In this document: positions 19,550 through 58,037 of the stretch, piece by piece
Position numbering within the stretch: position 1 is the first letter of the stretch
Layout: each line of letters opens with the position of its first letter
From: Patiria pectinifera
Taxonomy: Eukaryota; Echinodermata; Asteroidea; Valvatida; Asterinidae
NCBI GenBank assembly: GCA_029964075.1
Contig: CM057136.1
Coordinates: forward strand, 6,386,001 to 6,450,000
Direction: 5' to 3'
Length of the DNA: 64,000 bases
Program-made: the position numbers and the translations under genes
The notes under the pieces: model-generated
Told to the model about the DNA's origin: nothing
Seen by the model: the letters and a program-made list of their open reading frames with translations, nothing else
Databases searched by the model: none

Positions 19550-19559
19550 ATGGTATAAC

Positions 19560-20047
19560 GGTGCCGCCCGATAGTCCGAAAATGAAATAAGGTTCGTTAA
19601 TCCGAGTATTTGATGCAATAGTCTGAAGGTTCATTAATCCGAAGGGTTCATTAATCCGAAGGTTCATTTACCCGAAGGTTCGGTAGTCCGAATTTAGAAT
19701 AAGGTTAATCAGTCCGACGGTTAAATAGTCCGAAACGAAAATAAGGTTCAATAGTCTGAAGGTTTGTTATTCCGAATTGACAACAAGGTTCAAAAGTCCG
19801 AAAAGACTATAAGGTCTGATAGTCCGAATCGACAATTAGGTCCGATAGTCCGAAGTGTCAGACTGACGAACTAGATTGTCCATTCGAACTATCGAACCTT
19901 ATTGTCAATTCGGACTATCGAACCCTATCGTCTATTCGGACTGTCGAACCTTCGGATTAATTAAATTTATTATATTTTTGGATTAATGGGCCCTTTGGAC
20001 TATGGAACCTTCGGACCATCGAACCTTCGGATTATCGGGCTGTAACC
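19560..20047. mobile_element. Foldback element of opposed 16-bp repeats (locus A)
   Basis: It starts GGTGCCGCCCGATAGTCCGA and ends GGGCTGTAACC, flanked by exact 8-bp duplications GGTATAAC (19552-19559 and 20048-20055). The left half repeats a 16-bp unit like GGTTCATTAATCCGAA and the right half carries the reverse complement (TTCGGACTATCGAACC), so the whole can fold on itself. It has no coding capacity. It is 488 bp and related to the elements at 46984-47434 and 57731-58020. Confidence 0.88.
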
Positions 20048-20055
20048 GGTATAAC

Positions 20056-20729
20056 AATAGCAACGTATTCTTTGGTTTGATGTGTTTTTGGAAAAATTAA
20101 TTGCCTTGTTCATTTTTTTCTGCACAACTTAAATTACTGTTGACATTTTTAATTTCAATTCATTTTTTGTTCGAGATAAATGGCTAAAGTTAAACGAGAT
20201 TAAACGTCGGTGAAGGGCAAAACCTAAATTGATTTATATCACCCCGACGCAAAATTCCATCTTATAATTAAACGAGATACTTGGTGACAGTAGTTTTACA
20301 ATGTCACCACTGTAACTCTTAACTTATAGCATATGCATATTGTGATTAAACGGGTGGATGTTTTCGCATCTTTTCAACAATGACACCAATCACGCTGCCG
20401 GATAATATTACAAGCCCGCCGCGACTGCACTCGCAGGACCCACTCCATTCTACGTCAGTACTCAGGGATTTGAGTATTCACCCGAAATACTCCTAGATTA
20501 TTATTGTAATTCCAGGCGGCTGTCTAGGTAAATCCTGGATAGCGCTTGGGGCAATTCCATTTTTTAAATGACGGCTGCGGAAGAAGAAAAAAAATCAAAC
20601 GATGACGTCCTTTCACTTCAGTGAGGTGTGTTTTCTCAAAACAAAATCCACTGCAAGAATTATAAGAACTAAGTTGGGCCGCGTTCGAATAAGACATTTG
20701 CGAGTTAAATTTGAATAACATTTGGAACG
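20056..20729. other. Intron 1 sequence; dispersed repeat copy
   Basis: Bases 20231-20267 repeat bases 14-50 of the window almost exactly. Nothing else was recognised. Confidence 0.5.
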
Positions 20730-20996
20730 CTGACTTAACTCAATGCTTTGCACGATTTAACTTTGCATTCTCCCGACCAAAGAGACTGTTACTATATCAC
20801 GTGATTCGGGGCCAAGCCTTATGCTGGCAACCCCAGCTCCGGCATGGTCTGGTGTTTTTGCACCAATGTTCTGGTGCTGAGCGTCTCTTACGTAACTATG
20901 CAAGAGCTTAATTGCCCCGAATCATATGATTAGCAACAGTGTCTTCGGTCTGGAGAATTCAAAGTTAAAGTGTTCCAAACATTCTGAGCAAGTCAG
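20730..20996. mobile_element. MITE with long imperfect inverted ends, copy 1
   Basis: The outer ends are CTGACTTAACTCAATG and CATTCTGAGCAAGTCAG. The arms continue imperfectly through TTTAACTTTGCATTCTCC and GGAGAATTCAAAGTTAAA to CACGTGATTCGGGG / CCCCGAATCATATGAT. A second copy lies in the opposite orientation at 58038-58320. No coding sequence. Confidence 0.75.
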
Positions 20997-21057
20997 TATA
21001 CTAGATTTTTTTTTTTCAAATTTAAACACCAAAGGGTATAGGTCACTCGCAAATGGC

Positions 21058-21160
21058 TTATGACTTGGCTACGGCTGTAAGTTACACACGAGTATATGGG
21101 AGCGGCTGCAGCCACGTCCCATAGACTCGTGTGTGATTTCCATCCGTAGCCAATCATTGA
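21058..21160. mobile_element. Short hairpin, possible MITE
   Basis: Arms of about 37 bases (TTGGCTACGG...ACACACGAGT and ACTCGTGTGT...CCGTAGCCAA) with scattered mismatches and a short spacer. No duplication was recognised at its edges. Confidence 0.55.
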
Positions 21161-22324
21161 ACCCGGCCTAACCTAAAAGAAAACAAGAGAAAGGTGTTAT
21201 TAATTGCACCTCATTTGTATACTATAGCAATATTTTGGCGAACCCCTTTTGCTATGCATGATGCTAGCAGTGAGCTCTTGCTGTATAAATGTACCGTTAC
21301 AATTCATTGAAGCTCCGTTTAACTTCACCGACCACGGTCAATCACTTTCCAGTCTGCGTTAACCACATCATAATGATTACCTATACACGTGCTATGCAGA
21401 TAGCCGAGGCTGTCACTAATTAAAGTGTATCGTACAAGTATTGTGTCCGGTTGGGTATGTGCAGTTGGGGGGGGGGCACCATTGACACGCCCTGTTACGT
21501 TTTGACTCATCACATTTGTTGTGCTAAGCCTTTTAGAAGCAACCTCGTCCCAAAATTTGACTTGTATCTCTTTAATGCGTGCAACGACCGACGTCATTTC
21601 CTTGTTGACCACAAGCTTTAATCACGAAAATATCAACAGATGACAAAAAGAGTGCAATTTAAAAAGTATAAATCGAAGAGATTTTCTTGAAACTGCACAA
21701 AACAGAAAACAAATCACTAAGCTATGTCCACAGGGACAAATACATGTATTTTGCCCCCTCTCTTTGATGATTGTGTATTGCGCTCTGAGCAAATCGGCGC
21801 AATTCAGTGCTTTAATAGCGTAGGTTGACTTGCGCCTAAGAGCTCCAGATCAAGTGAATTGAAGTGAATCTGAAATCTCCGGAGACTCCAATGCAATCAC
21901 TATTAACCTCGTTCCCATTATATCTGTAGGCATAAAATGTCCCTTGTGCAGTCAACATTTTGTGATATTCGCAGAACCCTATCGGGTATGTGCATGACCA
22001 ACAATTCAAAAGCGGAAGGGCAGGTATGGAGCGGGCCGAATTTGATTGGTTGGGATACTATTGATGCCGTTATGACCCACCGATTCAAAATGTCATATAA
22101 CTCTTCCAATTCCGAGGATCTGTTGAATATTGAGAGTATTTCTCTCTTTTTTTCACTCAACATTAAACTGTAAAACTTAGGATAGATTAGTTAAATTCCA
22201 ATGTTCTGTGCAAACTGTGGTTAGGTATAACGATTATGATATTGATTTTTTCAACCAATAAACAGAGCCTATATTAGGTTTTCAAAAACAATTGCTTTTT
22301 TTGTAATCCAATGCCATACATATA
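21161..22324. other. Intron 1 sequence without a recognised gene
   Basis: A short poly-G run lies near 21467-21475. Otherwise no gene, element or strong repeat was seen. Confidence 0.4.
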
Positions 22325-22475
22325 TACAGGGTGAGTAAAAAAAAGGAAACCCAAATGGCAGGAGCAATTTGTTAATGAAGTTCTGCATGTAGCACAACCA
22401 CCGTTTTAAAGTTCTGTCCACGGATCACAAAACAGGTAAGTGTTTTTCAGCAAGACGAAAACAATTCACCCTGTA
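22325..22475. mobile_element. Mariner-like MITE, short copy
   Basis: The ends TACAGGGTGAGTAAA and TTCACCCTGTA are inverted and TA-flanked, in the style of IS630/Tc1/mariner elements. The interior (CAAATGGCAGGA, AACCGTTTTAAAGTTC, AGCAAGACGAAAACAATTCA) also occurs at 40003-40246, where about 90 extra internal bases are present, so this copy is internally deleted. Confidence 0.8.
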
Positions 22476-23569
22476 TAGGACCATTGAAAAAAGTTTATAA
22501 GAGGTAGCTAATGTATCGGTTGTGTACGTTCGAGCATGGTTCGAGATACACGAAGTTGCCTCTCGTCTTTACATGTCGACAGCTTTGCGATTATTACGAA
22601 GTTGGATAACCGGTTGTACTCTACCCACAATTAACGCACCCCCAACCGTTGGGGATCATTATGGTAAGGTATCAAATTCACCAAGTCGTCATTTGCATAT
22701 TGCATTGTGTATGAGCTTGTGAGTCAACGACTGAGCAATGCAAATACTATGGCAGTCGAGAGCGTTAAAACAGTGCATCCTTCCAACATGACCCTTCAAA
22801 CTGATAAATTTTACGCCACGCGTCCTACTCACCAAACATTACACATAACAGTGTTAGAATTAATTAACTGAATAAAAATGTTGAATTGATTTCACAAAGT
22901 GTAGTTAACTATCCGGTTTTTATGACTTACAATGTATGTTCATACTGCCTACTGGAAAGACCAGGACATATTCTGCCTGTGATTAAATAACATAATAGTT
23001 ATTATAATCTTGAACTAATCTGAGTCAATTTTGCTTTGAAGTTAAAAAACAAAAATAACAAGGGGAATCAGGTGTGTTCAGCATGTGGCACTAAATAAGA
23101 TAAGATCATTGGTAAAAGCCATACGTGTTAGAAGGCACAAGATATTATTGACCACGAGCTTGTAAATTCCGCACAATATTGCCAAGGTTTTCGCGCCTTT
23201 CTACTCTCGCAGAAAACAAAAACACTGATTCCCGCGGATGGGTAAAGGTTAAGTCAGCTTGTTATTTCCGCTAGCAGGAGGGCGACTTTATCGTAAAAAT
23301 AGAACAAAGTGGAGCAGTGCATTGCAAAGAGTTCTCGCGACTAGTCAGGGACTGCGTGGGAAATGTATCAATACGACTTTGGCGTCCACTTCCTGAAGTC
23401 GATTTCACGACACTTGTCTTATCTTATTGCGCATTTCAGGACTTCATGTTGTGAGGTAGATCCCAGCTAGAAATGCCATCCTAGACCAATCGCGCAAAAT
23501 GCGACTATATTGCGAGTAAAATCAAGAATAATCAAGAATATTTCTTGCACGACGAAGTCCTATTATATC
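22476..23569. other. Intron 1 sequence without a recognised gene
   Basis: Nothing recognisable beyond short fortuitous frames. Confidence 0.4.
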
Positions 23570-23572
23570 TAA

Positions 23573-24097
23573 AGCTTGCCGCACACGAGAGCTACGTGCT
23601 TAGCAAAAAGTCATTCGAGGCCATTTGCTCAGCACGTAGCTCACAACATATCCTCGTGTGCGGTAATTTTGCTGAGTTTTCCGCCTCGCGAGGCCGAGAG
23701 GCAAATATCTCGCCTATTTGATTTCTATCGCCTCGCGAGGCGAAACACTCACCGTGTGTGGTCAACCTGAGCTACGTGCTGGGCCAACAAGATTAACTCT
23801 AGCCACTGAAATCAAGTACTCTCTTCTAAAGCCTGCTGGCGTTTGTCCCCATTTTGTGCTTTCAATGGCTAGTTAATCATGTTGGCTCAGCACATAGCTC
23901 AGGTTGACCGCACACGGTGACTTTTTCCTCACGAGGCGAAAGAAATCAAACAGGGGAGATAGTTTCCTCACGGCCTCTCGCGAGGCAGAAAACTCAGCAA
24001 AAGTGTACTGCACACGGGGATGTTTTGTGAGCTACGTGCTGAGCAAACCACATCGTAGCCTTTTTGCTCAGTACGTAGCTCTTGTGTGCGGCGGGCT
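23573..24097. mobile_element. Multi-layer foldback element, Harbinger-like
   Basis: The ends AGCTTGCCGCACAC and GTGTGCGGCGGGCT are inverted and flanked by TAA on both sides, as in PIF/Harbinger insertions. Within each arm there is a further hairpin (GAGCTACGTGCT...AGCACGTAGCTC) and CCTCGCGAGGCGA-type palindromes. The two arms pair with each other around a centre near 23.84 kb. It is 525 bp with no coding frame. Confidence 0.75.
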
Positions 24098-24395
24098 TAA
24101 ACAATCACAAAGAGTTCAACATGTAATCTTGCCTCGGAAATCAAACATAGGCCCTATACTACAGACCTTGCAACAAGAGGAACAAAGCAAGCGGGCTGCC
24201 TGTCAACATTGGTGATTTCGTCAGGTAATGCTGGTTTCCTATTATAGTCTGAGGATCAGACGTTCACGCGACGCTTCGAGCCAGACAATCGGAGCCGACT
24301 TAAGAAATTGAAACATCAATAACCGAGCAGAAATTCGGCCTGACCTGTTGAGTTGTCAATTAGCTGCCATGTTTTTGTAATACAACAATGGGTCA

Positions 24396-24666
24396 CGTGG
24401 GCGTCGTCAGGATTTTTTTCTAGAGAGGGGCTAAGCACATTGCCCCCGAAATCCCTGTACTTTTCCTGCAGATTCTTGATTATCATTTTTCGAGAGTGAG
24501 CAGGGACATTTGCCCTCCCCAATCCATTAAGTTAACAGTAATGTGACTTCGCACCTCTTTTTCTTTCTCCCCCTTTTTTTCTCCATTTTTTTCCCTGTTT
24601 GCTTTTGCCGGGGGGCGGGGGTAACAAGCGCCCCCCTTTTGCCCCTCCCCCCTCGCGACGCCCATG
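24396..24666. mobile_element. hAT-like MITE, diverged relative of 19294-19549
   Basis: The ends are CGTGGGCGTCGT and GCGACGCCCATG. The flanks ATGGGTCA and CCGGGTTA match at 5 of 8 positions, a decayed duplication. Interior G/C and T runs match the 19.3-kb copy. Confidence 0.7.
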
Positions 24667-27347
24667 CCGGGTTACCGAAAACCCGATAGAAGGCTCCCGC
24701 TGGATGGTCAAGACGCAGTCTTGTTTTGCACGATTAATTGCGGAGCCTGCGCGAATATCATAGACGCTTGTGTGCAAGCGGCTATTCCATAGTAAAAACT
24801 AGGTTTCCCATGCATCCCAGCAGGAACGTGACGAAGATTTGCCACTGACTGTTGACATTACGAGCAAGTACTTTATTCTGAGGACTAATGTCTTTAGAAG
24901 GCATTGAACCCGTGCGTCGTGGTTGCAATAAACAATAAAGCATTCAAGTACATGCAGCTACAGCTCGATATGTACAGTGGCAACACTGTACTGCCATGCA
25001 AATATTTCTACCTTTTGCTTTAAGATTCAGGCCCTGAAGCTGTCTTAAAATGGTTTACTCAGGGATTACTAGGATAGCGAATCGGTAATTGTATTCATCG
25101 TGTTGGGGAAAACATCCACTTAACCACATCTACAAAGTGTTTTTCGCATGTCCTTTCCCTTTTATACTAAAGGCCAAAGAAACGCTTATTTTTGTACACG
25201 ACTTTCCCAAAATTCAAGGAAGGAATTTTTTCAAGATGGCATTTTATAATATTCACCTATCTTTTCGGGCTGCTTGGTAAGACAAATGTCTTATAAAGCG
25301 ACCTACTGATGTTTTCCCCACTACGCAACGTGGCTTACCTCAGATCACATGAATAAATGGGGCGACAGGACTAGTTAAATGGAAGATACAACATTTGTAA
25401 ACATCAAAAAAACCGAAATGATCAAATTATCACGAAATACCTTACTGGATTGTTAGGGAATGACAGTCCAAAGTATTCTGTAAAATCGTGGTTCCTGGCC
25501 GGTGTGGCGACATTGTCAAGTAAAATTTTCCCAACGCTCCTAATTTTTCAAATTTAGTTATTCCGCATTTCTTTGCAATTGATTACACACATGTGAAGGG
25601 GTACAAGCCCGCTAGACTGATTCTCTGACCTTACAATTCCCCAAAGTCTATAAACTGCTCCGTTTCATCTTAAGTGGGGTCAGGGAACCAGACTACGAGA
25701 ACATGATTGGTTTTCTTGGTTTTTCCAGCATCTACGAACCTCAAAACGAGTAACAAGTCATTTTAACAATATTTGCTAGGACGTACTAATTCTCCAAATC
25801 CATGTATTTATGAAACTTACAGCAAAAGCAAATGTTGTACATTCCCTTTAAGTTACGTATTAATGCAAAAGAGCATCGCATGTCGACTTTTGAACATCGT
25901 AAACTGGCTAATGAAACTTTAAAACGCACAGATGTTTACGAGTGTTAAAGGCACATAGGATCTTTTGTAATATCCAAAAACATTGCCCTTTCACCGATGT
26001 ATTTTATAAACACTGTATACTCAGTGTTGTCCCAAGTGATTGTGAGAAAAATCACTCGGGTAAAACCTAATTTACATCATTCCGACGCAAATTCCAGCTT
26101 TATGATCATAAATATGATAGTCCAGTGGCTTGGGTCCTGATTGATGCTAACTATTTTGACATTTGGGAAAAAGCTATAGGAAAAGGTCTTTTAACTAGAT
26201 CTTCTTTGTTTTCTTTTCGTGGAATTCGTCAGCCTAGCTCGAGGCCAAAGGTCACTCCATTTGGTGTTTGCTACAAAGAAAGAACGAAAAGTGCAAATGG
26301 ATAAAAAGAAAGACAAAGATGCAGGATGACCAAAAATCTTAAAATTGCCTCGCCGTGGAAATTCGAAAAGCGGCGGGGGGGGGGGGGGAGCTGGACACCA
26401 CATGACACTAAGGTTCATGATGCAAAATGTACATCTAATGCCAACTTGCGCGCTTACGTCCCTTAAAGGGATATTGCGGCCTGAAATACGCCCAATTGGG
26501 CTAAAAAAAACCCCGCGTTTTAAGCAGAATTATTTATTATTAAATGGATAGATCATTTAAAAGTAGAATATAAACGTCCGCACAACCATCCTTTAAAAGT
26601 TGGGCGTTTTTGTGTTATTCTTGCGAGCACCAGCCCCAGGACGAATTTCGGGGGTCACCAATTTGTCACGAAGAATCGAGCTGTTCAGGGCTAGTTTTAT
26701 TTCCAGACGCACAGTGGTCGCCTTCTGCGGACGTGTGAAAAACAAAATGTGTGTATTGGTGCTGTCTGTATGTGACACACACAGCGGGTATTAAACACTG
26801 AATGAAAACGACTGGAAATACGTATACGTACTCAGTGGAGTCTGATGTAAACATCCTTTTTTTTTTCGTCTTTTCTCAGGAACGGTAAGGCATTAAGTTA
26901 ATTTCTTTTCAACTAGACCTTTAGAATATCATAAGTAAACAATCTAAAACATGAAATTTTCGCTGATTTCATGCCGCAATGCCCAACGCAACGGTACATT
27001 AAAGCTTCCGTTATTCCAGTTTTTTTCAGAACTGTTTGATACATTTGAAATGTTGGAAAGTTTCAAGATAACCTTAAAATTGGAATTGTCGGGTTCTCAC
27101 ACAACTCGGGGGGGGGGGGGTCCAATGGCACATCCCCTGGGCCTAAAGTGTGGGGGGATTTCCGCCCATGGACAATTTAAATGAAAATCCCATACGAAAT
27201 ATGCATTACGTTATAGGTTATCAGACATACTTCAGCAAACGGTCGTTAAACCCTACATTAACATCTTAACCTGACAGTGTTTCGTATCAATTTACTTCTG
27301 TTAAAAGTTTCAGGCCATTCATTCCAATCATCGTCACTCTGAATGTA
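24667..27347. other. Intron 1 sequence; old dispersed repeats
   Basis: Bases 25612-25860 are a diverged copy of 57470-57690 (shared GGGTCAGGGAACCAGA, AACATTTG-like and GCAAATGTTGTA blocks). Bases 26062-26103 are a third copy of the repeat at 14-50. Poly-G runs lie near 26376-26388 and 27108-27120. No gene was recognised. Confidence 0.5.
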
Positions 27348-27515
27348 CAGGTGCGGATCCGGGGAGGACCCCCCTACCCTTCCCCCCTCTCCCCCCCCCA
27401 CCCCACACACCTATTGATTTTACGGAGGCCAAGTGTCCGGAGAAAAAACCCTGTCTACATTTCATTTTTTTTTGCTGATGAACAACCCCTCTACAAAAAT
27501 TCCTAGATCCGCCCC
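27348..27515. mobile_element. Short G/C-rich MITE
   Basis: The ends CAGGTGCGGATCCGG and CTAGATCCGCCCCTG are imperfect inverted repeats, related to the ends of the element at 11531-11823. No convincing duplication was found. The interior is C-homopolymer-rich. Confidence 0.5.
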
Positions 27516-30500: not shown

Positions 30501-30561
30501 GAGATTCGTTTGTCGAGCGCACATTTCACGTGTGCTCTTGAACGAGGCAGGAGATGTGGGA
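27516..30561. other. Intron 1 sequence without a recognised gene
   Basis: Frames of 101 to 168 codons occur (for example 29570-30076) but show no domain, splice context or codon pattern that supports a gene. No clear element was seen. Confidence 0.4.
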
Positions 30562-30569
30562 ACTAAAGT

Positions 30570-31537
30570 ACAGAAGCTAGAATTGCCTTCCGCGATACCG
30601 CGTTACCGTGATAATTTATCACAGAAATCTGGAATTCAAAGATAGCTATTCCTCGATACCGCGTTACCGTGATAAGTTATCACAGAAATCCGGAATTCAA
30701 AAATACATATTCCTCGATACCGCGTTACCTTGATAATTAATCACAGAAATCCGGAATTCAAAGATAATTCCTTCCTCGATACCGCGTTACCGTGATAAGT
30801 TATCACAGAAATCCGGAATTCAAAAATACATATTCCTCGATGCCGCGTTACCGTGATAATTTATCATAGAAATCCGGAATTCAAAGATATCTATTCCTTG
30901 ATACTGCGTTACAAGTGCATCTTTACTTGTCTAGACGTAAAGCAAGATTTTGACACCTCGCTGTGGTTTGGTGCTAATTACCATCGCCAGGGTGGTAAAT
31001 TCCTCTTTCCTCGAAAATGAGATCGAGCACTGGCACAATGATTCCAAAGTATATGAATACTCGATCCTATGATAAAGTTCATCACATCAAATTTAGGCCG
31101 TTTCATATTTTGAGGTTTCAAATGGTGCATTTTACTTTAAGTCTTCAATATTATCCAAAATTGACTAGAATTTAATCAGCCAACCACCTATCCAAAAATG
31201 TGACCTTGAACAACAAAATCTGCGAATTCCGGATTTCTAAATTTTCACAGTAACGCGTTATCGAGGAAGGGATTATCTTTCAATTCCGCATATCTGTGAT
31301 AAATTATCACGGTAGTAACGCGGTATCGAGGAAGGGATTATCGTTGAATTCCGGATTTCTGTGATAAATTATCACGGTTATGCGGTATCGAGAAAAGGAT
31401 TATCTTTAAATTCCGGATTTCTGTGATAAATTATCACGGTAACGCGGTATCGAGGAAGGAATTATCTTTGAACTCTGGATTTCGGTGATGAATTATCACG
31501 GTAATGCGGTATCGCGGAAGGCAATTCAAGCTTCCGT
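30570..31537. mobile_element. Foldback element of 61-bp repeats, hAT-like
   Basis: The ends ACAGAAGCTAGAATTGCC and GGCAATTCAAGCTTCCGT are inverted (two mismatches), flanked by exact 8-bp duplications ACTAAAGT (30562-30569 and 31538-31545). The left arm has five full 61-62-bp units starting at 30594, 30655, 30716, 30778 and 30839, plus a partial one. The right arm (about 31243-31525) has at least four inverted units. Each unit contains the palindrome GTGATAATTTATCAC and the block GATACCGCGTTACC. The central 330 bp is unique and non-coding. It is 968 bp, inside receptor intron 1. Confidence 0.9.
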
Positions 31538-31545
31538 ACTAAAGT

Positions 31546-34162: not shown

Positions 34163-34770
34163 GCAGGGCACATTCCATTTTTTGGCCTGTCGGGGGAATG
34201 GGTTTACAGTGGAGTGTTAGAGCAAAGTGCCCGTGGGGTCAGGACGTCAGCCGAGACTCACTCTGTAAAAGAAGATAGAAGAAAAAATAGCTAAACAAAG
34301 ATCATGAATGAAACTTTGCAAGTTATATTATGTCGCCAGAGTTTTTTCCCCTTCGTTGTTTTTTTGGTGAAGAATGTTTTCAAATAGCTGTCATCTCACA
34401 ATAAGGGGCCCTCATAAAAACATGAATGGCCTAAGGTGGGGGTTGGCCAGGCACTTTCAGCAGATCCTGTCAAAGAGTTAGCTGCATCATCTGCCTGAGG
34501 AAATGAAGGAGCTTGGATTGAAGTTTTGTTGCGTACGCCCTCGCGATGGAGCATAACTTACAGGGATTTCGATAAAACACGAAGAGAGTTCCAGAAATTA
34601 AGTCTGATTTTTATGACATGCTTTTTAAGCTTTTTACACTGCAAATCTCTCAATATTCGGCAACAGAGTGGTCTTTGTTGCACAGAGTTTGCCCAAAAAG
34701 TGCAACATTCAGAAAACAAATAATTAAAGCTGTTTAATGCTTTTTCTTCATTTAAATTATATATTACATA

Positions 34771-35071
34771 TTACATTAAAGCCTGATTTTCTCAATCCAC
34801 CCCTTTTTACCCAATTACATTTGGGCCACTAGATCCAGCAATGCAATTAATAAAGTGAAAGGGTGTAAATTTCACTTGGGCCACTTTTACCTGTGATGTC
34901 ACCAACTTCAGTGCCCATTCAATGCTTAACCCAGATTCAGCATGTCCCGGTGAGAGTGGCCCAAATAAAATGTACACCCTTTCGATTAATTGATTGTACT
35001 TCAGGATCTAGGGACCCTAATGGAATGGATTAAAAAGGAGTGGCTTGCGAACAATTCAGGCTTTAATGTAA
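34771..35071. mobile_element. MITE with TTACATTAAAGCCTGA ends
   Basis: Perfect 16-bp terminal inverted repeats TTACATTAAAGCCTGA, with CATA on both sides (34767-34770 and 35072-35075). Imperfect internal pairing continues (AAGTGAAAGGGTGTAAATTT against AAATGTACACCCTTTCG-like bases). 301 bp, non-coding. The superfamily was not assigned. Confidence 0.7.
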
Positions 35072-35075
35072 CATA

Positions 35076-35905
35076 TAATATTATAATTGAAGAAGAAACA
35101 TTATCAGTTTTAATTATTTGATTTTTGAATGTTGCACTCTCTTTTGCACACTCTGTATTTGCAAAATGAAGAGTTACCGGACCTGCTTTGAACTGTCGTT
35201 TTATCAGGGTGATTCTAGTCAAATGCTGTTTTGCTGGAAGCCAGGAAATGAACTTAATCACCCAAATTTTCATTATGAAAGTTTGATCTGTAAAACATAT
35301 TTATGAAGAAACCCTCGTTCAAAACGTCCAACAGAACAAACACGAATCGCTGACGTCAGCTTTTTGCCAAGGATTAAAGGGGTGCGACGTTGGGAATGGT
35401 AATATTCGTCTTCGCGTTTAAGTCATAACGACGTCGTAGCTTTAGAGGTGAATAAGAAGGAACAATATTAAGGCTCATATCATTTTACTTCATGAGCCCC
35501 GAATTTCAGATCGAAAAACAGTGACACAGTGAACGAAGGAGGGAAGGGGGGGGGGGCCTTTGGGGAACAAGCCCCGTGACCAAATCATCAAAAAGGGAGA
35601 AATGGAAAAAAACATGTGGTATTATACTCAGTAATGTAATAGTCAAAACTGCCCGGAGGGACCGAAAATGCGGCTCATGCACCGGTCACAACACTTTAAC
35701 GTTGCTTCCTAAACAGCAATATTCTTTCTGAAATAATGTCCTTTCCCTTCCCCCGGCCTCTCCGAAGTTCACATTTCACAGCGAGAAAATTTCGAAACAA
35801 TCTCGGTTACCAGCCATGCAAAGTATCTGGTCATAGTGGTTAAGACTGGTCACAGTAGCAGTATGTAAAACAACCTTTGAATTGCAATCTGGCTTATCTT
35901 TTCCC
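35076..35905. other. No gene recognised
   Basis: A poly-G run lies near 35548-35556. Otherwise unremarkable. Confidence 0.4.
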
Positions 35906-36583
35906 GCATACAGCGTGTCTCTATAAACATTGTGCATGAAGAAGTCGCTGATTTGCTCAAAAGGTGGTCATACTAGCTCATCACATTTTATGTTATTTTA
36001 AAGCCTATTGTCTTGTTTATAATTGGTGAACATATCAAGAAAATCCATCAATGCAAAACAGTGATATCGTTTATTTTGTAAGGCTATATTATTTTCCTCC
36101 TGCACAATTAGAATCCTGTAGTTAAGCATGTTAACAAAGAACGTCAAAAGGGTCTTTACAATGTTGACGCTTGAGTAATTTGCAATTAGAGCAGTTACCA
36201 AGTGCCTTTGAATAATCTTCTTCGATGAACAATCAAATAAACACCCTCTAGCTATGCAGTTTCTTCTTTTATTTATTTGTCAATGAAATATTTTTAAATC
36301 AAGGCCATGCAAAATTCCAAGCACTGCGTAACACATACCAATACCCCAATAATTGGTATACACAAGCAAATACTAAGTGTGGAAATTACACTGTGCAGGT
36401 CGAAAAATACATAGCCTTACAAAATCAAAGACATCTCTAGTTTGCATTGGTGGATTTTCTTGATTTTTCACCAAATATAAACAAGAACATACACTTGAAA
36501 ATGTTATAAAAAGCTAGTCAGACCAACTTTTAAGAAAATCAGCGATTTCTGCATGCACAATGTTTATTGGGACACCCTGTTTA
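35906..36583. mobile_element. Mariner-like non-autonomous element with long inverted ends
   Basis: The left end (ATACAGCGTGTCTCTATAAA) and the reverse complement of the right end (AACAGGGTGTCCCAATAAAC) pair imperfectly. The arms continue through ACATTGTGCATG and TCGCTGATTT for about 65 bases. ACAGGGTGTCCC is a typical Tc1/mariner terminus. No transposase frame; the boundaries are approximate. Confidence 0.65.
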
Positions 36584-38406: not shown

Positions 38407-38585
38407 TATTATACAAATAACGAATGTTTTTGAGTGCAATGGTAAGAATAATTTCATGAGGTGACAGATGAAATATTCCATCCACGAGGCAAAACTGAAT
38501 GGAATGAAACATTTCATCTGTCACCGAATGAAATTATTCTTTCCATTGCACGAACGTGAAACATTCATTATTTGTTTTATATAAC
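38407..38585. repeat. Hairpin within the palindrome cluster
   Basis: Arms of about 80 bases (TACAAATAACGAATG...GTGACAGATGAAAT and ATTTCATCTGTCAC...CATTCATTATTTG) with a GAGGC-containing loop. Its ends and loop resemble those of 39078-39254. Confidence 0.75.
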
Positions 38586-39077: not shown

Positions 39078-39254
39078 GATATACAAATATTGAGTGGGTC
39101 AGGGTGGAATGGGAGGAATATTATCGCAAGGTAAAATCTGGACTTTTCCATTTCACGAGGCGAAGCCGAGTGAACTGGAAAAGTCAAGATTTTACTGAGC
39201 GATAATATTCCTCCCATTTTACAATCTAAAGCCACTCAATATTTGTTTTATATA
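39078..39254. repeat. Hairpin within the palindrome cluster, second of its type
   Basis: Arms of about 75 bases (ATACAAATATTGAGTGG...GGAGGAATATTATCGC and the complement) with an ACGAGGCGAAGCCGAGT loop. Same architecture as 38407-38585. Confidence 0.75.
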
Positions 39255-43874: not shown

Positions 43875-44245
43875 GGCCAAAAAAAAAAATAAGTCGGTCT
43901 CTGGTCAGCGCGCGCGTCGATTTTAAGCATGCGCGTCGATTTTTTTTTCCAAAATGTTCCGCGGTAGCTCCAACAGCGCCCTCTATTTCCGCACCTCCTC
44001 AATTTTTTTTACCAAAGAGCACCAAGGAATGGGAAATTGCACCAAGGCAAATGATCGAAAGCACCAAGGCAAATTATGGAGGCCACCAATGTACATGAGG
44101 ACACCAAAAAAGCAAAATAGTACCCACCTTGTCTGTACAATCCAAGCTGAAGAAAAAAAAAAAAGGAAAAAAAAAAAAGCCGCGTGGCCGCGTCAATTCC
44201 GGAACTTTGGTCTGACCAGAGACCGAATTATATATTTTTTTGGCC
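43875..44245. mobile_element. Harbinger-like MITE with TAA duplication
   Basis: The ends GGCCAAAAAAAAAAATAAG and ATATTTTTTTGGCC, with inner TCGGTCTCTGGTCAG arms, are inverted. TAA flanks both sides (43872-43874 and 44246-44248), as in PIF/Harbinger insertions. 371 bp, no transposase. A single-ended relative is at 53578-53660. Confidence 0.78.
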
Positions 44246-44248
44246 TAA

Positions 44249-46792: not shown

Positions 46793-46801
46793 GTTAAGTT
46801 T

Positions 46802-46974
46802 AATAAATTATAAAGTTTGCGGGTAGAACCATGTGACAGATATCTCTTCTTGGAAGAAGTAAGGTTCTGAAAAGAACCGGTTGGTTGCTGGGAGAAGGAT
46901 GGTACTTTTGAGAACCACACTTCTTCATAGAAGAGATATCTTTCCACATGGTGTCACCCGCAAACTTTCCATTT
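46802..46974. mobile_element. Palindromic element carrying a histone-type 3' stem-loop
   Basis: The two arms diverge from a centre near 46889 and are complementary through AAAGTTTGCGGGT, ACCATGTG, AGATATCTCTTCTT and GAAGAAGT. The inner part of the left arm, read on the minus strand, is GGTTCTTTTCAGAACC (46863-46878), an exact match to the histone mRNA stem-loop form GGYYYTTHTHARRRCC. The right arm has a degenerate version (GGTACTTTTGAGAACC, 46901-46916). A purine tract AAGAAGAGATAT follows each, where a histone downstream element would lie. GTTAAGTTT flanks both sides (46793-46801 and 46975-46983). No histone coding sequence is present. Confidence 0.7.
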
Positions 46975-46983
46975 GTTAAGTTT

Positions 46984-47434
46984 GGTTACGTCTCGATAGT
47001 CCGAAGTCGCATGGGTCCGACGAAACACAATACTGTGTATAGTTCCACTGGTTTGGGTTGACTGACCCTAACCCTAACCCCAACCCTAATCCTAATCCTA
47101 TGGGGCGTCGGACCAATGGGACCTCAGACCAATGGGACTTCGGGTCAATGGGACTTCGGACCAATGGGACTTCGGACCAATGGGACTTCGGACCAATGGG
47201 ACCTCGGACCAATGGGACTTCGGGTCAATGAGACTTCGGACAAATGGGACTTTGGACTAATGGGACTTCGGACCAATGGGACGTTTATACCATTAGAACG
47301 TATAGAGTAATGGGCCGTCGGACCAATGGGACTTCGGACCAATGGGACGTTGGACCAATGGGACGTCGGACCAATAGGACGTCGGACCAATGGGAAGTCG
47401 GACCAATGGGACTTCGGACTATAGAGACGTCCCC
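46984..47434. mobile_element. 16-bp-repeat element (locus C) with telomere-like insert
   Basis: It starts GGTTACGTCTCGATAGTCCG and ends ACTATAGAGACGTCCCC, inverted ends similar to locus A. GTTAAGTTT flanks it (46975-46983 and 47435-47443). A short left array (GATAGTCCGAAG, CATGGGTCCGACG) is followed by an opposed array of about twenty 16-bp units GGACCAATGGGACTTC (47101-47420). The array stays open in several frames on both strands, which is a repeat effect and not evidence of genes. Confidence 0.85.
47066..47100. repeat. Interstitial telomere-like repeats
   Basis: Five or six units of CCCTAA and variants (CCCTAACCCTAACCCCAACC, then CCTAATCCTAATCC), the C-strand form of the metazoan telomere repeat TTAGGG, lie inside the locus C element between its two opposed arrays. 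Confidence 0.8.
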
Positions 47435-47444
47435 GTTAAGTTTG

Positions 47445-50400: not shown

Positions 50401-52915
50401 GGGGGGGGCGCTCGGAGGGTCTGAGCCCTCCCTCTCAAGAGGTCGTCTATTTTTGTTAGTCCCACGATTGGACCGTGTTGATATGTATGTGGCCTATTTT
50501 CCAGTAGTAAAATAGGACTGTAAATGGCGCCACCAACGTCAAAATAATCCATCCTCCCACCTCTCAACAAAACAAAAACATTCTTGGGTCAAATTTTGGG
50601 ATTTTTTTTTGCAAAAAATCAAACTTCTCAAAAACATCTAAAAACTTCCTCAGGAGTGTCTACTTCTCATTAACAGAAATGGTAAATTGATGAACGCTTC
50701 AAAACAAAACCAGAGGAGACAATTCCGTTTTCAAGTTGATAAGAGTGCACTTCCATCTCTGAACCATGCCTTAACCGCATAGTTACCAGGATTTCTGACA
50801 GATTATCTTTGATGCTTGACGATATTCATCTCCCTAAAATGTGAAGAATCTTGAGGCAGCGTCCGGGATCACTTGCGATCAGAATTATCCTCGGGTGCTA
50901 TCGCTTTGATGCTCCCGTACCTTGAGGATAAACGTACCGTTGGGGAAATCAACAGTTTCGAGTGCGAAACGATATATTCTGCTTCCCCTGAAAGATAAGA
51001 AGGCGCCCAAAATGGAATAAATCAGGAACTTTTTTAGTTCAGAAACATCGTTGTTGAGACGTGTTCAAATATGACCCTTCCGGAGGCGATAGAAGTGAAA
51101 GTAATGGTTGGTATACTATCTGCAGACACTTGACGTATGCAAGACGTTTTGCTCGTTGAATTGCAAGGATTTCATGATATTAAACGACGTTTTGGTTTAG
51201 CTTATTTTAGGAAAGATTTTGATATCCTGAGTACTGTGAGTGGGAACAGCCTGGAATAATCTTACACGGCCACTCGACCAGAAAGCTGGTTCGGCGCAGT
51301 ATTAGTTTGGCGCAAATTACACTCGACAATCAGCAGCCTTAGGAGAAAAAGATGAATCGAGCAAACGAGCCAATGAGGAAAAAGGAAACAATTAAGGTGA
51401 AATAAAATGAAAAAAAAGGGAAAAAAGACACTGGAAGTCTATATTTATTTTATCTGTACTTTAATTTTTAATGTATCTTTTAAGACTGGACACCCTCGGA
51501 AATGCCTCCCCCACAAAAAATACCCAAACAAACGAACAAACAAACAAACAAACATGAAGTCCACCCCCTCCCCCGCTTTTCGATTCTTCCACGGCCGATG
51601 ATTTTGGTTGCCTCCTATTTTGCCCCTTCTACCTGTGAACTAGTGGAACTCGGTGCACTTGTAAAAAGATGAAAATTTATGAACTAATTTTGTGGCGATC
51701 ATGTGGTGAAAAACGAAACTTCAATAGGAGACTAAAATGTCTTTTAGAATATAAATGCTCCTTTTTAATCAACTTGACCGACATATTAGCATTTACAAAA
51801 CAATATAATATTACAAAATTGAAGCCAGCCCGACTAAATCTAGAACCCATCGGCTGTAGGTTGGTAAATCTTCGCGTCGTTATACAATTTCGGTTCTCAC
51901 GCAATTGCGATGTGAAAACAAAAAGCGTGAACGAACAAGGAGACCTCTGAGCGAAAATGCCGGATGTGAAAGGTTGTAAGGAACATTCGTTTTACCCAGG
52001 ATTTATCATAATTTTTTTTCTTAAGGAATACTAAGATAATGTTTCAACATCAATGTTTCTTGGGGTGATTACGGCTAGAAATAGGTCTGTCATTAAGTAA
52101 AGCAAGAACATTTGGCTATCTTGTGTAAAATGCCCATAGGCGGCCCGCGCGAGGGTTCCGGAAGCTCGCCCCGTGACCTTTTACTTTCAAATTCAAGTGT
52201 TATTAACTATATGGAAGTTTATGCTGTTTATACAGCTTTGAACCACTTTTGGTCAAGTTAGTGGCTTTTTTCCGAACAAAAAATCACTTCTTTAAATAAA
52301 CATTCCAAATCCTTATTAAACAGATCAAAATCTTTCTACACGCACAAACCCCTAAATCTCTGATACATGCATCTGCGCATGAATGTATAGGTTAACTGTC
52401 TCAGGTATCATGTCGGCAAGTTGGTAACGTCTTTAAACAATTTGAAACTTGGAAATAAACATGATAGGTCTCCATCCCTATTACTGTTAGAAGGTGCAAC
52501 ATGAACTGTCTACGGGAGATTTGTTTTCATGATAAGGAGCTTTTTTAGTCTGCAGGAAGCTTTGGAGATCTGGTTGCAATCTCCGTGATGCATGATAACC
52601 GCTTCAACGAGACCACTATGAAACAAAGAGGTAAATCCAAGCTGGCATTCTGAATGGGGTCAAATATCTAATGGAAAAAACGTGGGAAACACTGGCAGAA
52701 TCAATGAAAAAATGTAGACAGGATCTTACTTAACAGGTGACTTTGTAAAATATCCTGAGCTTTGGGAACCCGCCCGTCTCGCATTTTCAACATTTTTCCC
52801 CTTCGACAAAAACTACACAGTATTTTATATTGTGTTCATATTATATTTCAATATTATTATGCCATTATGTTGGCTTTTGGATCCTGTGAGGTCTTAACGC
52901 TGCATTTCACGAATG
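47445..52915. other. No gene recognised; several small palindromes
   Basis: Small structures include a hairpin TTATTGTTGGCT/AGCCAACAATAA near 47793-47821, a 24-bp perfect palindrome at 49858-49881 followed by a CG-rich stretch to about 49999, and a hairpin AGGCATCTTGA/TCAAGATGCCT at 50311-50333. A poly-G run lies near 50397-50408. No host exon was recognised. Confidence 0.4.
49858..49881. repeat. Perfect 24-bp palindrome
   Basis: ACGGTGCGTCTT followed directly by its complement AAGACGCACCGT. The next 120 bases are rich in CGCG. Confidence 0.85.
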
Positions 52916-53095
52916 AAACACAAAAAGCAAAAAATAAAATTAAAAAACACGAAGCAAAACAAAGAAAAAAAACCACAAGGCAAAAAAAAAAACACGAAGC
53001 AAAACAAAACAAAAACACAAAGCAAAACAAAACAAAAACACAAAGCAAAACTAGACAAAACACAAGAACAAAGCAAAGTAAAAAAAAAAACACTT
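52916..53095. repeat. A-rich, T-poor tandem repeat
   Basis: About 23-bp units of the form ACAAAGCAAAACAAAACAAA. Bases 52942-53051 contain no T at all, a strong strand asymmetry. Long frames on both strands here are low-complexity artefacts. Confidence 0.8.
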
Positions 53096-53279
53096 GGATG
53101 GAATTCCAAACAATATAGTCGACGCGTGGATTTTGAATCTATACAATTTCTAAATCTGAAATTGTGCAATCATCGTACAGTGTTCGTATTTTTTGGTTCT
53201 TTTTGCCGTTAGCTATCGTCGTGTAAGTCTTTTGTCTTGTCTGTCTCGTCCGTGTGTTGTTATCATGTTGTTTTTCTGT

Positions 53280-53545
53280 TGTTATTGTTGACTTTAAGGG
53301 CTGTTTCCTAAAAGCCTCGGCTTACTTAAACAGCACCATACTCCTTAAGTTTCTTTGTACATAAATCGAAATAAGTTTAACATTTCTTCATAGCGTATCT
53401 TAATGGTATTAATTTTTTTTTTGAGACATATTTATTGATTTTGTTATCTTGTTATTTACCAGATTTCTTTTTTTATTGATGGATGTATTCTCTAAAGGAG
53501 TATGGAATAAATGTTTTCTTGAATTGAATTGAATTGAATTGAATA
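53280..53545 (+). mobile_element. 3' tail of a LINE ending in (GAATT)n
   Basis: An AT-rich UTR-like stretch ending GGAATAAATGTTTTCTTG followed by four or more GAATT units (about 53520-53543). This is the usual form of a LINE 3' terminus. No coding remnant was recognised upstream. Confidence 0.45.
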
Positions 53546-53577
53546 GTGTTGACTTGAATTTTGCACAAGCGAGTGTT

Positions 53578-53660
53578 AGGCCAAAAAAAAATAGTCGGTC
53601 TCTGGTCAGACCGAAGTTCCGGAATTGATGCAGCGACGCGTTGGCCGCAGTGAGGCCGCA
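53578..53660. mobile_element. Single-ended Harbinger-like MITE fragment
   Basis: It begins GGCCAAAAAAAAATAG then TCGGTCTCTGGTCAGACC, matching the ends of 43875-44245, and is preceded by TTA. It lies just downstream of the (GAATT)n LINE tail. The other end was not found. Confidence 0.6.
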
Positions 53661-55220
53661 GGCGCTGAATTCCAACCAAGCTCGTTACTATTTGCAAATG
53701 ATTAAAGTCATCGGACGCGTGCAATGCCTGAGGCATGACGGCAACGACCATCAACAAGACGAACTGGAGAAAGACAAATCCAAAGATATAGGCCTACGCG
53801 CAGGTTGCTAATTAAAGCAAAGTCGGCGACTTGTTAGATTCGCGCGTTTCTTCGCAGCATGATTTGTAGGATGATAACGTGGAATACATATAGGGTATAA
53901 GTCAAATTAACTCCGACTCTTGCATACAAAATCATTTACTCGAAAGCCACGTGCCGCATTTGATTCCCAAATACGGTTCTTTTTAACTTTTCCATTTCAT
54001 CGACTGGCTATATTTTGAAAGCAATTTTACATTTCATCGAAAGGCAGCAAATTTTGCAGCTGACCTTTTACGAATGTATTTTTCAATTTAAGGATAATCA
54101 CAGATGCTTTTTCGAAGTAAGTATTATAAGTTGAGAAATCACTGACCTTAATTTTAAAAGTTTCCGCAGCGGTTTTACATGTACTTAGCTTTGTACTTTG
54201 ACTATCAACAAGCTTGCCCTGACGCCATTTATGTTGAATCATTTAAAGGTTGGCGCCCTTTGAAAATACTTATACCAGTGTCCATTAGTAGCAAGAGCAA
54301 AAACAATACTCCTTTTCTTCATTGTGCACGGGGAGGGGTAATTCAAGAAAAAAAGTCAGCTAAATATTTTTTTAAAGAAAACTGCAGAGAAAAAAACACA
54401 TTTTAAAACGGATGTATATCCGATATAGGCTACGTTATCAAATCCATCAACTTAGCCTTTCGTGGCGTATCTGACGTACTTAAACACGAACAAACGTTCC
54501 ACAAATCCATCCCCTGGCGAATGGAGTATATAGACATCAATGATATTATTTGATTGATGTACTCTATACGACCGAAAAAAAAGTGAAGTTATGGTTTTTG
54601 TTGGTGAAAATAGTCAGTGGCGTCCGGGATCTTAATCCCTCTCTTGGGCCGCAAAAATAGAAACATCTGGCTGAAAAACCACAACAAATGCCTGCTAAAC
54701 CCCCTCTTGTCGGCTACCCCTTGATTCAAATCTTGATCAACCCCTAATAGTCCCAGTGTGGTCATTGTTAAACTCTTATCAACATTTAGATTTACGCGAA
54801 GCACGTCAGAGAAATAATCCCAAAGCGGAAAATGTATTAAAAAAGAGAAAAATGGTGTCATCAGGAACAAATTCAACAGATAATAATTATGTGTTGTTCT
54901 TTTTATCTACACGAATGTCAGTTTGACCAAAACAATGTACATTGGGCGGTCATGGAATGAGAGGAGTTTAAACTTGTTAGCGGGTACTCGATCCCTCCGT
55001 TACCACTCTGACTGCAGAGTTCAGAATTAAGCGGCTGATTAGACGTCTACATTAGCACAAGCCTTAACTAATACATACGGTTTGGACAAATAAGTTTGAT
55101 TGACAGTGTACACTCACAAATACTTGCTCTAAATCTTGAAAAGGTACGGTTGATGATTTGAATATGGGATACTTGGTAGTTTATTTTGTTAGATGTCTAC
55201 ATTAGCACATGGAGCCTCTA
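53661..55220. other. No gene recognised
   Basis: A weak hairpin (GAGTATATAGACATCAAT...TGATTGATGTACTC) lies near 54523-54565. Nothing else. Confidence 0.4.
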
Positions 55221-55562
55221 TACAGGACGGTGCAAAAGGAAACCCACTTTTGTGTTATTACGCCAATTTGATTACAAGTCACCAAAATCACTGTTGTCCA
55301 CGCGTAAGTCTAGTGTTGTGCTTTTTTGTCTTCCAATCAAGCGGAGCTCAGTCAAGCGGATGGAATAAAGCCGTCCGTGGACAAACAGGTTTGGCACATG
55401 ACATGTTTAAACTACCATATCTCAGAGACAAAATATGCAACTGCAATCATTTTCCCGTCACGTATGTTTAAAGATCAATACATTGAATTTTTGAAACATG
55501 TTAAACAAGTAGGTGACAATTGCTGTCACAGGTTGGTTTCCTTCTTTTTGCACCACCCTGTA
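55221..55562. mobile_element. Mariner-like MITE, complete copy
   Basis: The ends TACAGGACGGTGCAAAAGGA and TTTTTGCACCACCCTGTA are inverted, with TA at both edges. The interior (GTTGTCCACGCGTAAGTC, AGTCAAGCGGATGG, CCGTCCGTGGACAAACAGG) recurs at 56995-57360. 342 bp, non-coding. Confidence 0.8.
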
Positions 55563-56994
55563 CGAACAAACGTTGGACAAATACAATTTGAATAAATAAG
55601 ATTATTTGGAAACTGTCAACTTACTGACAAATCTTGATGCTCAAGTTCTGATCTTCAGGGCCAAAATGAGGTGTCTTATACGCTGTAGTTCCTGTTTCTG
55701 TTGTCAGAGTTCAAATATGACAAAGGTCTGTTCACTGCATTCCATAAACGTTAAGCCCATTTCAAATTGTTACCAAGCACGTAAAGACAAACACATCTTG
55801 ATAATGAGCACTAGAAAGATTTTCAGAATTGACTTCGGATACATTAAGGTCTACTTACCCGATTTACGTTCTTCGGCAAACAATCATCATTTTAGGGATG
55901 GATTGAAGAATTATTGCAATAAAGTGCCATGAAGCAGCACAGCCTGTGGTTTGTGTAAGTGGCGAGAGGGGCGTGTTTATCAGTCCGTGAAGGACGAGTG
56001 ATCGGGAGGCATACGGCAACTGAGCATCCAACGTGTGCAGATGGAGTAGGCTAGCAGGTGCTTCGGACGTTTGGTGTCAAACGAAGCCATCATTATAGTC
56101 ATCATATGGGGAACGCGCCATTCCCTCGATACGATGGACAGGCGGGAAATCAGACACATAAGTATAGTGATGGAAATTGAATGCTGTTGATTCGGTCTAG
56201 CTGACCTGTACCCAAGGCAGATGATTTCTGCGAATTATTATTTATCGGGCAAAAAAATGGCCCTTGGATATCGCGAGACTTGACCAGGAAACGGAGCTTC
56301 TGGTTACAAAAAATTCAAGGCTTTCACCTCAACTAAAGGAACATTTTGAAATTCCCATCAAAGCTTAAATTATCTACAATGTATTTTTCTTAGGACTCCT
56401 TCCCTTTGTTTATCTTATTTGCTTTTCTTTTCAACGCGTCTTCCTAGCCCCTTAATAGTTTAACCTTGGATATCTCTAGAGTCTCAATGACACATGCGAC
56501 GTGAAAATAATGTGACAATTTGTCACTTTACATAACTTATGGCAAGGCCCCGAGCATTTTAGTAGCATTAAGAGTATTCTTCATTTCATTGTTTATGGTT
56601 TGTATTAGAGCTGTAACGGTAACTTACACACATGCTAGCACACACACACGTTTGTTAATGGTGTAAATAAAGGATTTTCCTTTTCCCTTTTCCCTTGTTA
56701 ACTTTTTCGCAACGGCTCTTATTGGGTTTGTACACGTTTTCTAACCGAAGAGTCCTCGATTTCGTTCTTGTCCTAAATTCATCGATGATGTTGCACGTGT
56801 GTGTCCTCGATTTACACCATAAACACCATTCCTCTCCGTAAATAACTTATCCATCGCGCTTTCAATAGAAATCAACGCTTTGCGTCGAGAAAAATGAACA
56901 TACATTACAGTATAACATATACTGAGCTAAAATTTCTGAGCTGAAAAACCTCCAAATTATTATGAAATACATTACTGTAAATAATACAGGTTGG
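55563..56994. other. No gene recognised
   Basis: A 108-codon frame at 55606-55932 resembles nothing known. Tandem TTTTCCCTTTTCCC lies near 56678-56694. No element was recognised. Confidence 0.4.
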
Positions 56995-57360
56995 TGCAAA
57001 AAGAAGAAAACCCACTTTTGACAGGATTTTTTACCTACTTACTCAACTTATTTGAACTGTTTTGTTTTGTATAATGTAGTGAAGTATAGCTCTTAAACCA
57101 TACATTGTGAAAAAAATCGCAAGACTAATGTTATTATGTTAATTTGAATAGGAGTCACCAAAATCATGGTTGTCCACGTGTAAGTCTTGTGTAGTGTTTT
57201 TCGTCATCAAACCAAGCTCCGGAGCTCAGTCAAGCGGATGGAATAAAGCCGTCCGTGGACAAACAGGTTAGGCACATGACTTTTTTAAACTATCGTATCT
57301 CAGAGACAAATAATCATTTGCAATCATGTTTTAGTCACTTATGTTTAAAGATCAATACTT
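56995..57360. mobile_element. Mariner-like MITE, right end missing
   Basis: It begins TACAGGTTGGTGCAAAAAG and shares long interior blocks with 55221-55562 in the same orientation, diverging after GTTTAAAGATCAATAC. Confidence 0.75.
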
Positions 57361-57469
57361 TAATACCATTAAATCAAACTTTGTATCAATTTCCAATGAT
57401 GGTCGGCCAACCATCATTAAAAAATTACTTTTACAAATATTGCCCAAAATTTACAAAATCTAGTCAGTC

Positions 57470-57690
57470 TTGACAATTCCCCAACGTATAATTGTTTTTA
57501 TATTTTATCTAAAGTAGGGTCAGGGAACCAGAATACAAGAACAACATTTGTTCTGGGTTTTCTGCATCTTTAAACACACAACTTTAAACGGATCAGTGTG
57601 ACACTATTTGCTATAAAATACTAGCCCCCGACTCCATAATTTTCTAAAAATTCCAGGGAAAAAAGTAAATGTTGTATATTAAAACATCTA
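57470..57690. repeat. Old dispersed repeat (pair with 25612-25860)
   Basis: It shares ACAATTCCCCAA, GGGTCAGGGAACCAGA and AAATGTTGTA blocks with 25612-25860 in the same orientation, at similar spacing. Confidence 0.55.
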
Positions 57691-57730
57691 TTTAGTAAAA
57701 AGGGTTCAACCCAATAAGTCATTTGCGAGT

Positions 57731-58020
57731 GGGGTCCGCTCATAAGTCCGACGCCCCATAGGTCCGACGCCTCATAAGTCCGAAAAAACGCATCCCCTAA
57801 CCAAATAAAGGCCCATAAGTCCGATGCCTCATAGCTCCGACGCCTCGTAGGTCCGACAAATTAAACCCTCGTTTTTCCGACGTTGACTTACGAGGTGTCG
57901 GATTGATGAGGCGGAATAAATAAATGTTATGCCTCATACGTCCGACGCCTCATAAGTCCGAAATTTCGGACTTACGAAGCGTCGGACCTATGAGGCGTCG
58001 GACTTATGATACGGCCCGGC
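57731..58020. mobile_element. Foldback element of opposed 16-bp repeats (locus B)
   Basis: The left half repeats CATAAGTCCGACGCCT-like units and the right half carries the inverted form (GGCGTCGGACTTATGA). The outer ends GGGTCCGCTCATAAGTCCG and CGGACTTATGATACGGCCC pair. No target duplication is visible. It lies 17 bases from the MITE at 58038. Related to loci A and C. Confidence 0.8.
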
Positions 58021-58037
58021 CTTAAACATCTGGTACA

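Follow-up and report, generated by a model that had tools for sequence, protein, structure and literature searches.

Three loci in a 64,000-nucleotide stretch of the genome of the sea star Patiria pectinifera, here called A, B, and C, raise the question of what kind of sequence is made of little else than opposed copies of a 16-bp unit. The stretch, referred to at its full length as the window, is C8:6386001-6450000 (contig CM057136.1) of a 613.5-Mb assembly of 1020 contigs. It is argued below that A, B, and C are probably single copies of three related, non-autonomous families of Foldback-type DNA transposons, with Mutator-like elements (MULEs) as the most likely superfamily.

Anatomy and kinship of the three elements

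All three loci have the 16-bp period reported in the initial annotation of this DNA, and each holds units in both orientations, as seen from the counts of the core TCCGA and its complement TCGGA (12/5 in A, 2/13 in C, and 9/4 in B). At the best rotation and strand, the consensus units given by Tandem Repeats Finder for A, C, and B match at 11, 10, and 12 of 16 positions, a result equalled by none of 20000 shuffled triples; the idea of one diverged unit common to the loci has thus held up. In the general plan, each arm opens with a terminal motif (10 bp, or 9 or 11 bp in certain copies) and continues as inward-facing units, mostly of 16 bp and with TCCGA as their core.

Element A (19560..20047, minus strand, 488 bp), which belongs to a dispersed family, has the ends GGTTACAGCC-CGATAATCCGAAG and GGTGCCGCC-CGATAGTCCGAA; its GGTTAC end lies at 20047 and a decayed GGGG-type end at 19560. 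Inward-facing units form the left arm (19569..19858, plus strand) and opposed units the right arm (19879..20037, minus strand). The spacing in A is not uniformly 16 bp: the left arm has spacings of 26 bp (six), 16 bp (five), 21 bp (one), and 17 bp (one). The element is bordered, without any gap, by an 8-bp direct repeat with identical copies on the left (GGTATAAC, 19552..19559) and on the right (20048..20055); in simulations that allowed two bases of slack, an exact match of this length had a probability of 0.0005.

Element C (46984..47434, plus strand, 451 bp) has the ends GGTTACGTCT and GGGGACGTCT, which are also those of its family. Its left arm (46994..47025, plus strand) consists of the terminal unit CGATAGTCCGAAGTCG and one internal unit, and its right arm (47103..47424, minus strand) holds CATTGGTCCGAAGTCC units, 18 of them anchored, including the terminal unit CTATAGTCCGAAGTCC. 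The right arm has a 34-bp interruption at 47279-47312, and the same kind recurs across the C family. Between the arms lies a middle domain with telomere-like CCCTAA repeats (47026..47102), which is retained in family copies. Such repeats are seen at 47064-47098 in the window and in the middle of the C-family copies inspected, which means that the element carried them. The flanking duplication is an exact 9-bp repeat (10 bp with a shared G), present as GTTAAGTTT at 46975..46983 and again at 47435..47443; under the same two-base slack, exact 9-bp matches had a simulated probability of 0.0001.

Element B (57731..58018, plus strand, 288 bp) has the ends GGGGTCCGCT-CATAAGTCCGACG and CGGGCCGTAT-CATAAGTCCGACG (in the family, GGGGCCGTAT). 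The limits first annotated for A and C proved exact, whereas B ends at 58018 and not at 58020. None of the three elements codes for a transposase, the longest stop-free frames being 45 aa in A, 50 aa in B (measured on 57731-58021), and 95 aa in C, the longest of all.

The right end of A and the left end of C are identical at 19 of 23 bases, which was reached in none of 20000 shuffles and bears out the shared end that had been noted for these two elements. The ungapped score of the A left end against C is low (9/23) because the left terminal motif of A is 9 bp. A pair of unequal ends, GGTTAC and GGGG, is common to the A and C families, and the exact sequence GGTTACnnCnCGATAGTCCGA has 180 matches genome-wide as against none for its reversed control. 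The left end of B matches A at 13 of 23 bases (30 of 20000 shuffles) and the right end at 5 of 23, in a comparison in which the latter was set three bases too far out. At another locus, L219, an GGTTACCGCT end is combined with an GGGGTCCGCT end, the left motif of B, and TCTGAAAC flanks both sides. These mixed ends and the ends common to A and C suggest that the three families are akin.

Alternatively, three unrelated families might have arrived at one unit core by convergence on a single host protein or a single transposase. Consistent with this, identity outside the core is only 0.35-0.50 between loci, with A units poorly matching those of C (0.36) and B (0.35), and the B ends are only partly like those of A. 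However, the equal 10-bp terminal length, the GGTTAC/GGGG ends common to A and C, and the A-like and B-like ends of L219 argue for kinship, and such convergence is judged improbable.

A palindromic terminal motif like that of the mosquito MULE Muta1 was looked for at six ends, which gave no consistent pattern. Single-strand folding beats that of shuffled sequences (z of -10.3 for A, -3.8 for C, and -9.9 for B), but fold-back this strong is a consequence of the inverted arrays and does not in itself demonstrate function.

Genomic dispersal, ends, and target-site duplications

Searches of the genome for the three families gave 120 matches for C (40 of 405 candidates scored), 181 for A (40 of 744), and 152 for B (40 of 1431). 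These are aligned pieces rather than whole elements, and the counts are lower bounds.

For the C family, 40 loci were fetched, 3 overlapping ones were dropped, and 37 were examined, of which 31 have an end pair and 6 do not. Among the 31 pairs, the flush 9-bp duplications have no mismatch in 8 cases, one in 10, two in 2, and at least three in 11; random 9-mer pairs have zero or one mismatch in 149 of 200000 cases. Three loci (L131, L158, and L168) have one duplication in common and are probably copies of a single insertion. The A family, with ends GGTTACAGCC and GGGGGCCGCC, was sampled at 20 loci; after removal of 3 near-duplicates, 17 were examined, 13 with the end pair and 4 without. Of the 13 pairs, 7 have an exact duplication (9 bp in 4, 8 bp in 3). 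A single mismatch is seen in 5 (four of 8 bp and one of 9 bp), and the last pair has an 8-bp duplication with two mismatches. The A-family duplication is therefore 8 or 9 bp, with zero or one mismatch in 12 of the 13 pairs. It should be noted that in both families pairs were picked by ends plus duplication, which gives a mild bias towards matches. In the B family, with ends GGGGTCCGCT and GGGGCCGTAT, pairs were picked by ends first, and all 20 loci have them. Here the 8-bp duplications have no mismatch in 5 cases, one in 5, two in 4, and at least four in 6, and random 8-mer pairs have zero to two mismatches in 2217 of 400000 cases. Since the flanks of L193 and L195, and those of L196 and L197, are near-identical, the 20 B loci represent at most 18 separate insertions. 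For element B itself, a displaced candidate duplication, TAAAACATCT/TTAAACATCT (65 of 20000 shuffles), was dropped because the family puts the end of B at 58018.

Two observations were made in passing at these loci. At L171 (contig C14, about 7864.3-7865.7 kb), two A-family elements form a tandem pair, in which the duplication TACCATGAT flanks both outer ends and recurs where the two meet. A 17-bp array (L206:81-277), some 1.2 kb away from a copy of the B family, has the unit TGGGTCCGAGTTGGTAG, in which the GGTCCGA core is again present, and perhaps represents a further family.

It might be asked whether A, B, and C are simply minisatellites or satellites that are palindromic by chance, as their period-16 arrays and the variable length of the copies would allow. 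Fixed ends, duplications, and many dispersed copies, as well as the conserved unit order in A and B, are at odds with this, and the target-site duplications and common ends leave such an origin practically ruled out. Long inverted arms of short tandem units, in dispersed copies with fixed ends and duplications, are instead what defines Foldback elements. The annotated view of related transposons whose bodies are almost wholly opposed short units is thus borne out by the common ends and by the duplications at many genomic copies.

The TCCGA arrays were also looked for in viral and prokaryotic DNA. Viral contigs (15 stretches) and prokaryote genomes (at least 113 stretches) were scanned for four TCCGA at 16-bp spacing, which gave at least 313 matches, ordered by three different rankings. 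Opposed arrays of these units were absent from the best 14, 10, and 12 rows, which were inspected; among these best-ranked matches, the nearest (L087, a metagenome-assembled genome of Fluviicola) is an 8-bp repeat of CGATAGTC.

Superfamily and evolution of the units

The duplications of 9 bp in C, 8 or 9 bp in A, and 8 bp in B fall within the MULE range of 8-11 bp (PMC6446971; here and below, statements about published elements refer to excerpts of the papers cited). The end starts GGT and GGG fit the G/C-rich first three end bases of most arthropod MULEs (PMC13359780), which is a weak test. Furthermore, the genome itself has 34 MULE matches to PF10551, all above cut-off. At C14:36724500-36733200, a 644-aa open frame with the MULE domain has 16-bp arrays on either side that are inverted relative to each other (132 bp at 88%), and the same holds for a 605-aa open frame with this domain at C4:15724500-15733200 (138 bp at 85%). 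All four MULE frames that were scanned match PF10551, and three also match PHD (E 7e-5 to 2e-4, just below the Pfam cut-off). What links A, B, and C to MULEs is their plan, their period, the length of the duplications, and the ends, rather than a coding copy in common.

Several observations weigh against this assignment. Target-site duplications of 8-9 bp fit hAT, P, and Merlin elements too, and duplications are lacking at 11 of the 31 C-family end pairs and at 6 of the 20 B-family pairs, including element B itself, which has no flush target-site duplication. The units of the coding C14 and C4 elements (CAACTCGTACGCGGAC and CAACTCGTACCTTGGA) differ from the TCCGA unit. In the stretches fetched for 9 of the 34 MULE loci, no TCCGA array was found, nor was the full-length coding element with the same ends that the initial annotation had envisaged. 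Five loci (L216, L217, L218, L220, and L221) are without a strong 16-bp array in 4.8-5 kb, L220 and L221 having weak period-16/17 arrays with scores of 71-75. The array at L210, which has the C4-type unit, is a 2.6-copy piece at a cut edge and was recognized only via its likeness to the L209 unit; at L212, a 16-bp array is present on one side, with no inverted partner within 8.5 kb. No exact duplication was established for the C14 element, and that of the C4 element, ACCTTAGA, was found in a wide search and is not clearly established. None of the four frames scanned has a FLYWCH match (Pfam, E 0.01), a FLYWCH-MULE transposase being the mark of the Phantom/Muta group of MULEs. Finally, likeness of the units to the motif of Tm1, a nematode MULE, is not significant for four of five units, the fifth being equalled in 44 of 2000 shuffles.

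These points bear on a second hypothesis, in which A, B, and C are Foldback-type elements but come from a different superfamily (hAT, P/Galileo, or Merlin) and the 16-bp period in common with the MULEs of this genome reflects convergence. The duplication lengths and the lack of TCCGA arrays at the inspected MULE loci would suit it, and in Galileo, a member of the P superfamily, the Foldback arms likewise hold transposase sites in repeated form (PMC3688188). Nevertheless, the 9-bp duplications of the C family and the inverted 16-bp arrays around two MULE frames point to MULEs, and another superfamily is considered unlikely. As background, 32 arrays of period 15-17 were counted in 168 kb flanking 60 family loci. 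Judged from the listed units, 23 are of the A, B, or C families, and of the other 9, one scores at least 150. Separately, two short opposed 16-bp arrays were noted at L130:854-961, with a unit (CCGATGTTCCCCAATA) unlike the others.

If A, B, and C are MULEs, a transposase supplied in trans from elsewhere would bind the repeated units via its zinc-finger part. The many putative sites would help this protein to find and pair the two ends, thus allowing synapsis of the arms. A period of 16 bp is about 1.5 helical turns, to which the 21- and 26-bp spacings in A might add steps of roughly half a turn. The cut would be marked by the conserved terminal motif together with the terminal unit, and staggered insertion over 8-9 bp would generate the target-site duplication. 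Slippage or unequal exchange may add or remove internal units while the terminal unit is retained. The earlier suggestion that the 16-mer is a putative transposase-binding site would fit Foldback and MULE biology.

Members of the C family range from 336 to 2787 bp, the longest being an expanded element at L149 (C15:11046000-11050000) whose 9-bp duplications differ at one base. Within single copies (L138 and L147), one unit variant, or a unit together with a 34-bp interruption, is repeated in succession. Such length variation and variant runs are as expected for slippage or unequal exchange. In 10 C-family elements the terminal units are CGATAG, CTATAG, or near to these, partly by construction, since the motif defined the ends. 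None of 274 internal units is within one base of these motifs in its first six bases, 209 of them being CATTGG, which indicates that the terminal unit stays distinct from those of the internal array. A greater likeness between neighbouring C units than in random order was not shown (499 of 5000).

It had been proposed that the units are uniform within each locus, as would follow if arrays are homogenized or regrown. When the five-base core is set aside, the units of C have a mean identity of 0.77, those of B 0.60, and those of A 0.43. Uniformity thus holds for C, less for B, and not for A. In A, the annotated unit CATTAATCCGAAGGTT exists only as a short run, and the majority bases of all A units spell a different sequence, CGATAGTCCGAAAGTT. 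Within C, right-arm internal units are more alike within elements than between them (0.924 versus 0.880; 0 of 200 shuffles). This comparison left out units with odd first letters and started from 26 elements with ends (L134, L143, L144, L158, and L168 dropped), of which the 21 with at least six units were used, giving 375 units. In A, the same column across elements agrees at 0.858, as against 0.479 for different units of one element and 0.465 when both unit and element differ (first 330 bp; of 16 elements tried, the 14 that have a GGTTAC end, with L171, L175, L183, and L188 dropped beforehand). The corresponding values for B are 0.903, 0.683, and 0.676 (first 300 bp; 18 elements, without L195 and L197). 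Since likeness by column exceeds likeness within an element (86% versus 48% in A, 90% versus 68% in B), elements of the A and B families inherit their diverged units in a fixed order. Homogenization is therefore seen weakly, to some degree, in C only.

A broader possibility, judged less likely than not, is that a radiation of both coding and non-coding MULE families has taken place in this one genome, in which short terminal motifs and 16-bp arrays are kept and the unit varies (GTCCGAAG, GTCCGACG, CTCGTAC...) at constant period. If so, the period would be a requirement of the transposase complex and the letters would co-evolve with the finger of each transposase. The prediction is that units of equal period and different letters are bound by different transposases. 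Such families would provide a natural series for studying the co-evolution of transposase and site, in non-coding elements that are nearly nothing but binding sites. Otherwise, A, B, and C would be non-coding transposons built on a plan already known, carried along as ordinary passengers.

The surroundings of the three elements hold others of similar kind. A Foldback-like element of another family (30570-31537) has opposed 61-62 bp arrays, ends ACAGAAGC.../ACGGAAGC..., and an 8-bp duplication, ACTAAAGT, at 30562-30569 and 31538-31545. Directly upstream of C, at 46812-46968, lies a hairpin element whose inverted ends, 24 bp long, are 88% complementary, and more hairpin or inverted-repeat elements are found at 13877-14066, 23742-23927, 34699-35138, 35910-36580, 38434-38551, and 39108-39218. 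Given their number, the region is rich in small DNA transposon-like elements. A Pfam comparison covering 11 of the 12 window frames of at least 120 aa identified two rhodopsin-type receptors and one reverse transcriptase element and no transposase, and the window has no match in Rfam at gathering scores. The receptor and reverse transcriptase frames give the window the look of nuclear DNA of an invertebrate.

Comparison with known systems

Descriptions of the A, B, and C families were not found in openly licensed full texts, but the plan of the elements is already known from insects and worms. In sea urchin, TU elements have long inverted repeats of ~15-bp tandem units and 8-bp duplications, a plan like that of A, B, and C. 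A sea urchin Foldback element is also mentioned in PMC4079207, which cites Lieberman 1983.

Among characterized MULEs, Muta1 and Muta5 of Aedes aegypti offer a detailed parallel. Muta1 has a 10-bp terminal motif, nine 12-bp repeats with spacers of 3-4 bp, and 8/9-bp duplications, and Muta5 has an 8-bp terminal motif and nine 15-bp repeats (PMC5225508). In this mosquito, 10 of 12 long-armed families have subterminal repeats of 9-15 bp, and putative non-autonomous derivatives number >300 for Muta1 and >200 for Muta5, those of Muta1 often having truncated arms and a variable repeat number (PMC5225508). A, B, and C are similar in having a short terminal motif followed by a repeat array and 8/9-bp duplications. 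In contrast to the mosquito elements, which have coding copies, they have none known, their bodies are nearly all units, the sequence and order of the units differ, and their ends are unequal. Rehavkus, an outgroup of MULEs, combines a PHD finger, a 9-bp duplication, and a minisatellite (PMC6446971).

Tm1, a Phantom MULE of root-knot nematodes, has unequal 7-bp ends, units of 13-15 bp, and duplications of 8-10 bp (PMC3169594). Like A, B, and C, it has tandem units within composite inverted repeats, unequal terminal motifs, and mostly non-coding copies; unlike them, it includes a coding form, Tm1-A, and a motif D that is rich in purines (PMC3169594). Tetris of Drosophila virilis, a non-coding Foldback element with 8-10 bp duplications and tandem arm units, was assigned to Mutator via its duplication length (PMC4079207), and it differs from A, B, and C in that its units are ~220 bp. 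Galileo of Drosophila resembles them in its long, internally repetitive arms and has several tested sites for its transposase (THAP) (PMC3688188), but this transposase is of P type and the mapped sites lie ~70 bp and 560-720 bp from the end. For the tandem units of Foldback/Phantom elements, transposase binding was called untested in 2013 (PMC3688188). With three related families, in which internal units vary in number and the terminal one is retained, and with MULE frames between 16-bp arrays in the one genome, the sea star makes this question of unit binding directly testable.

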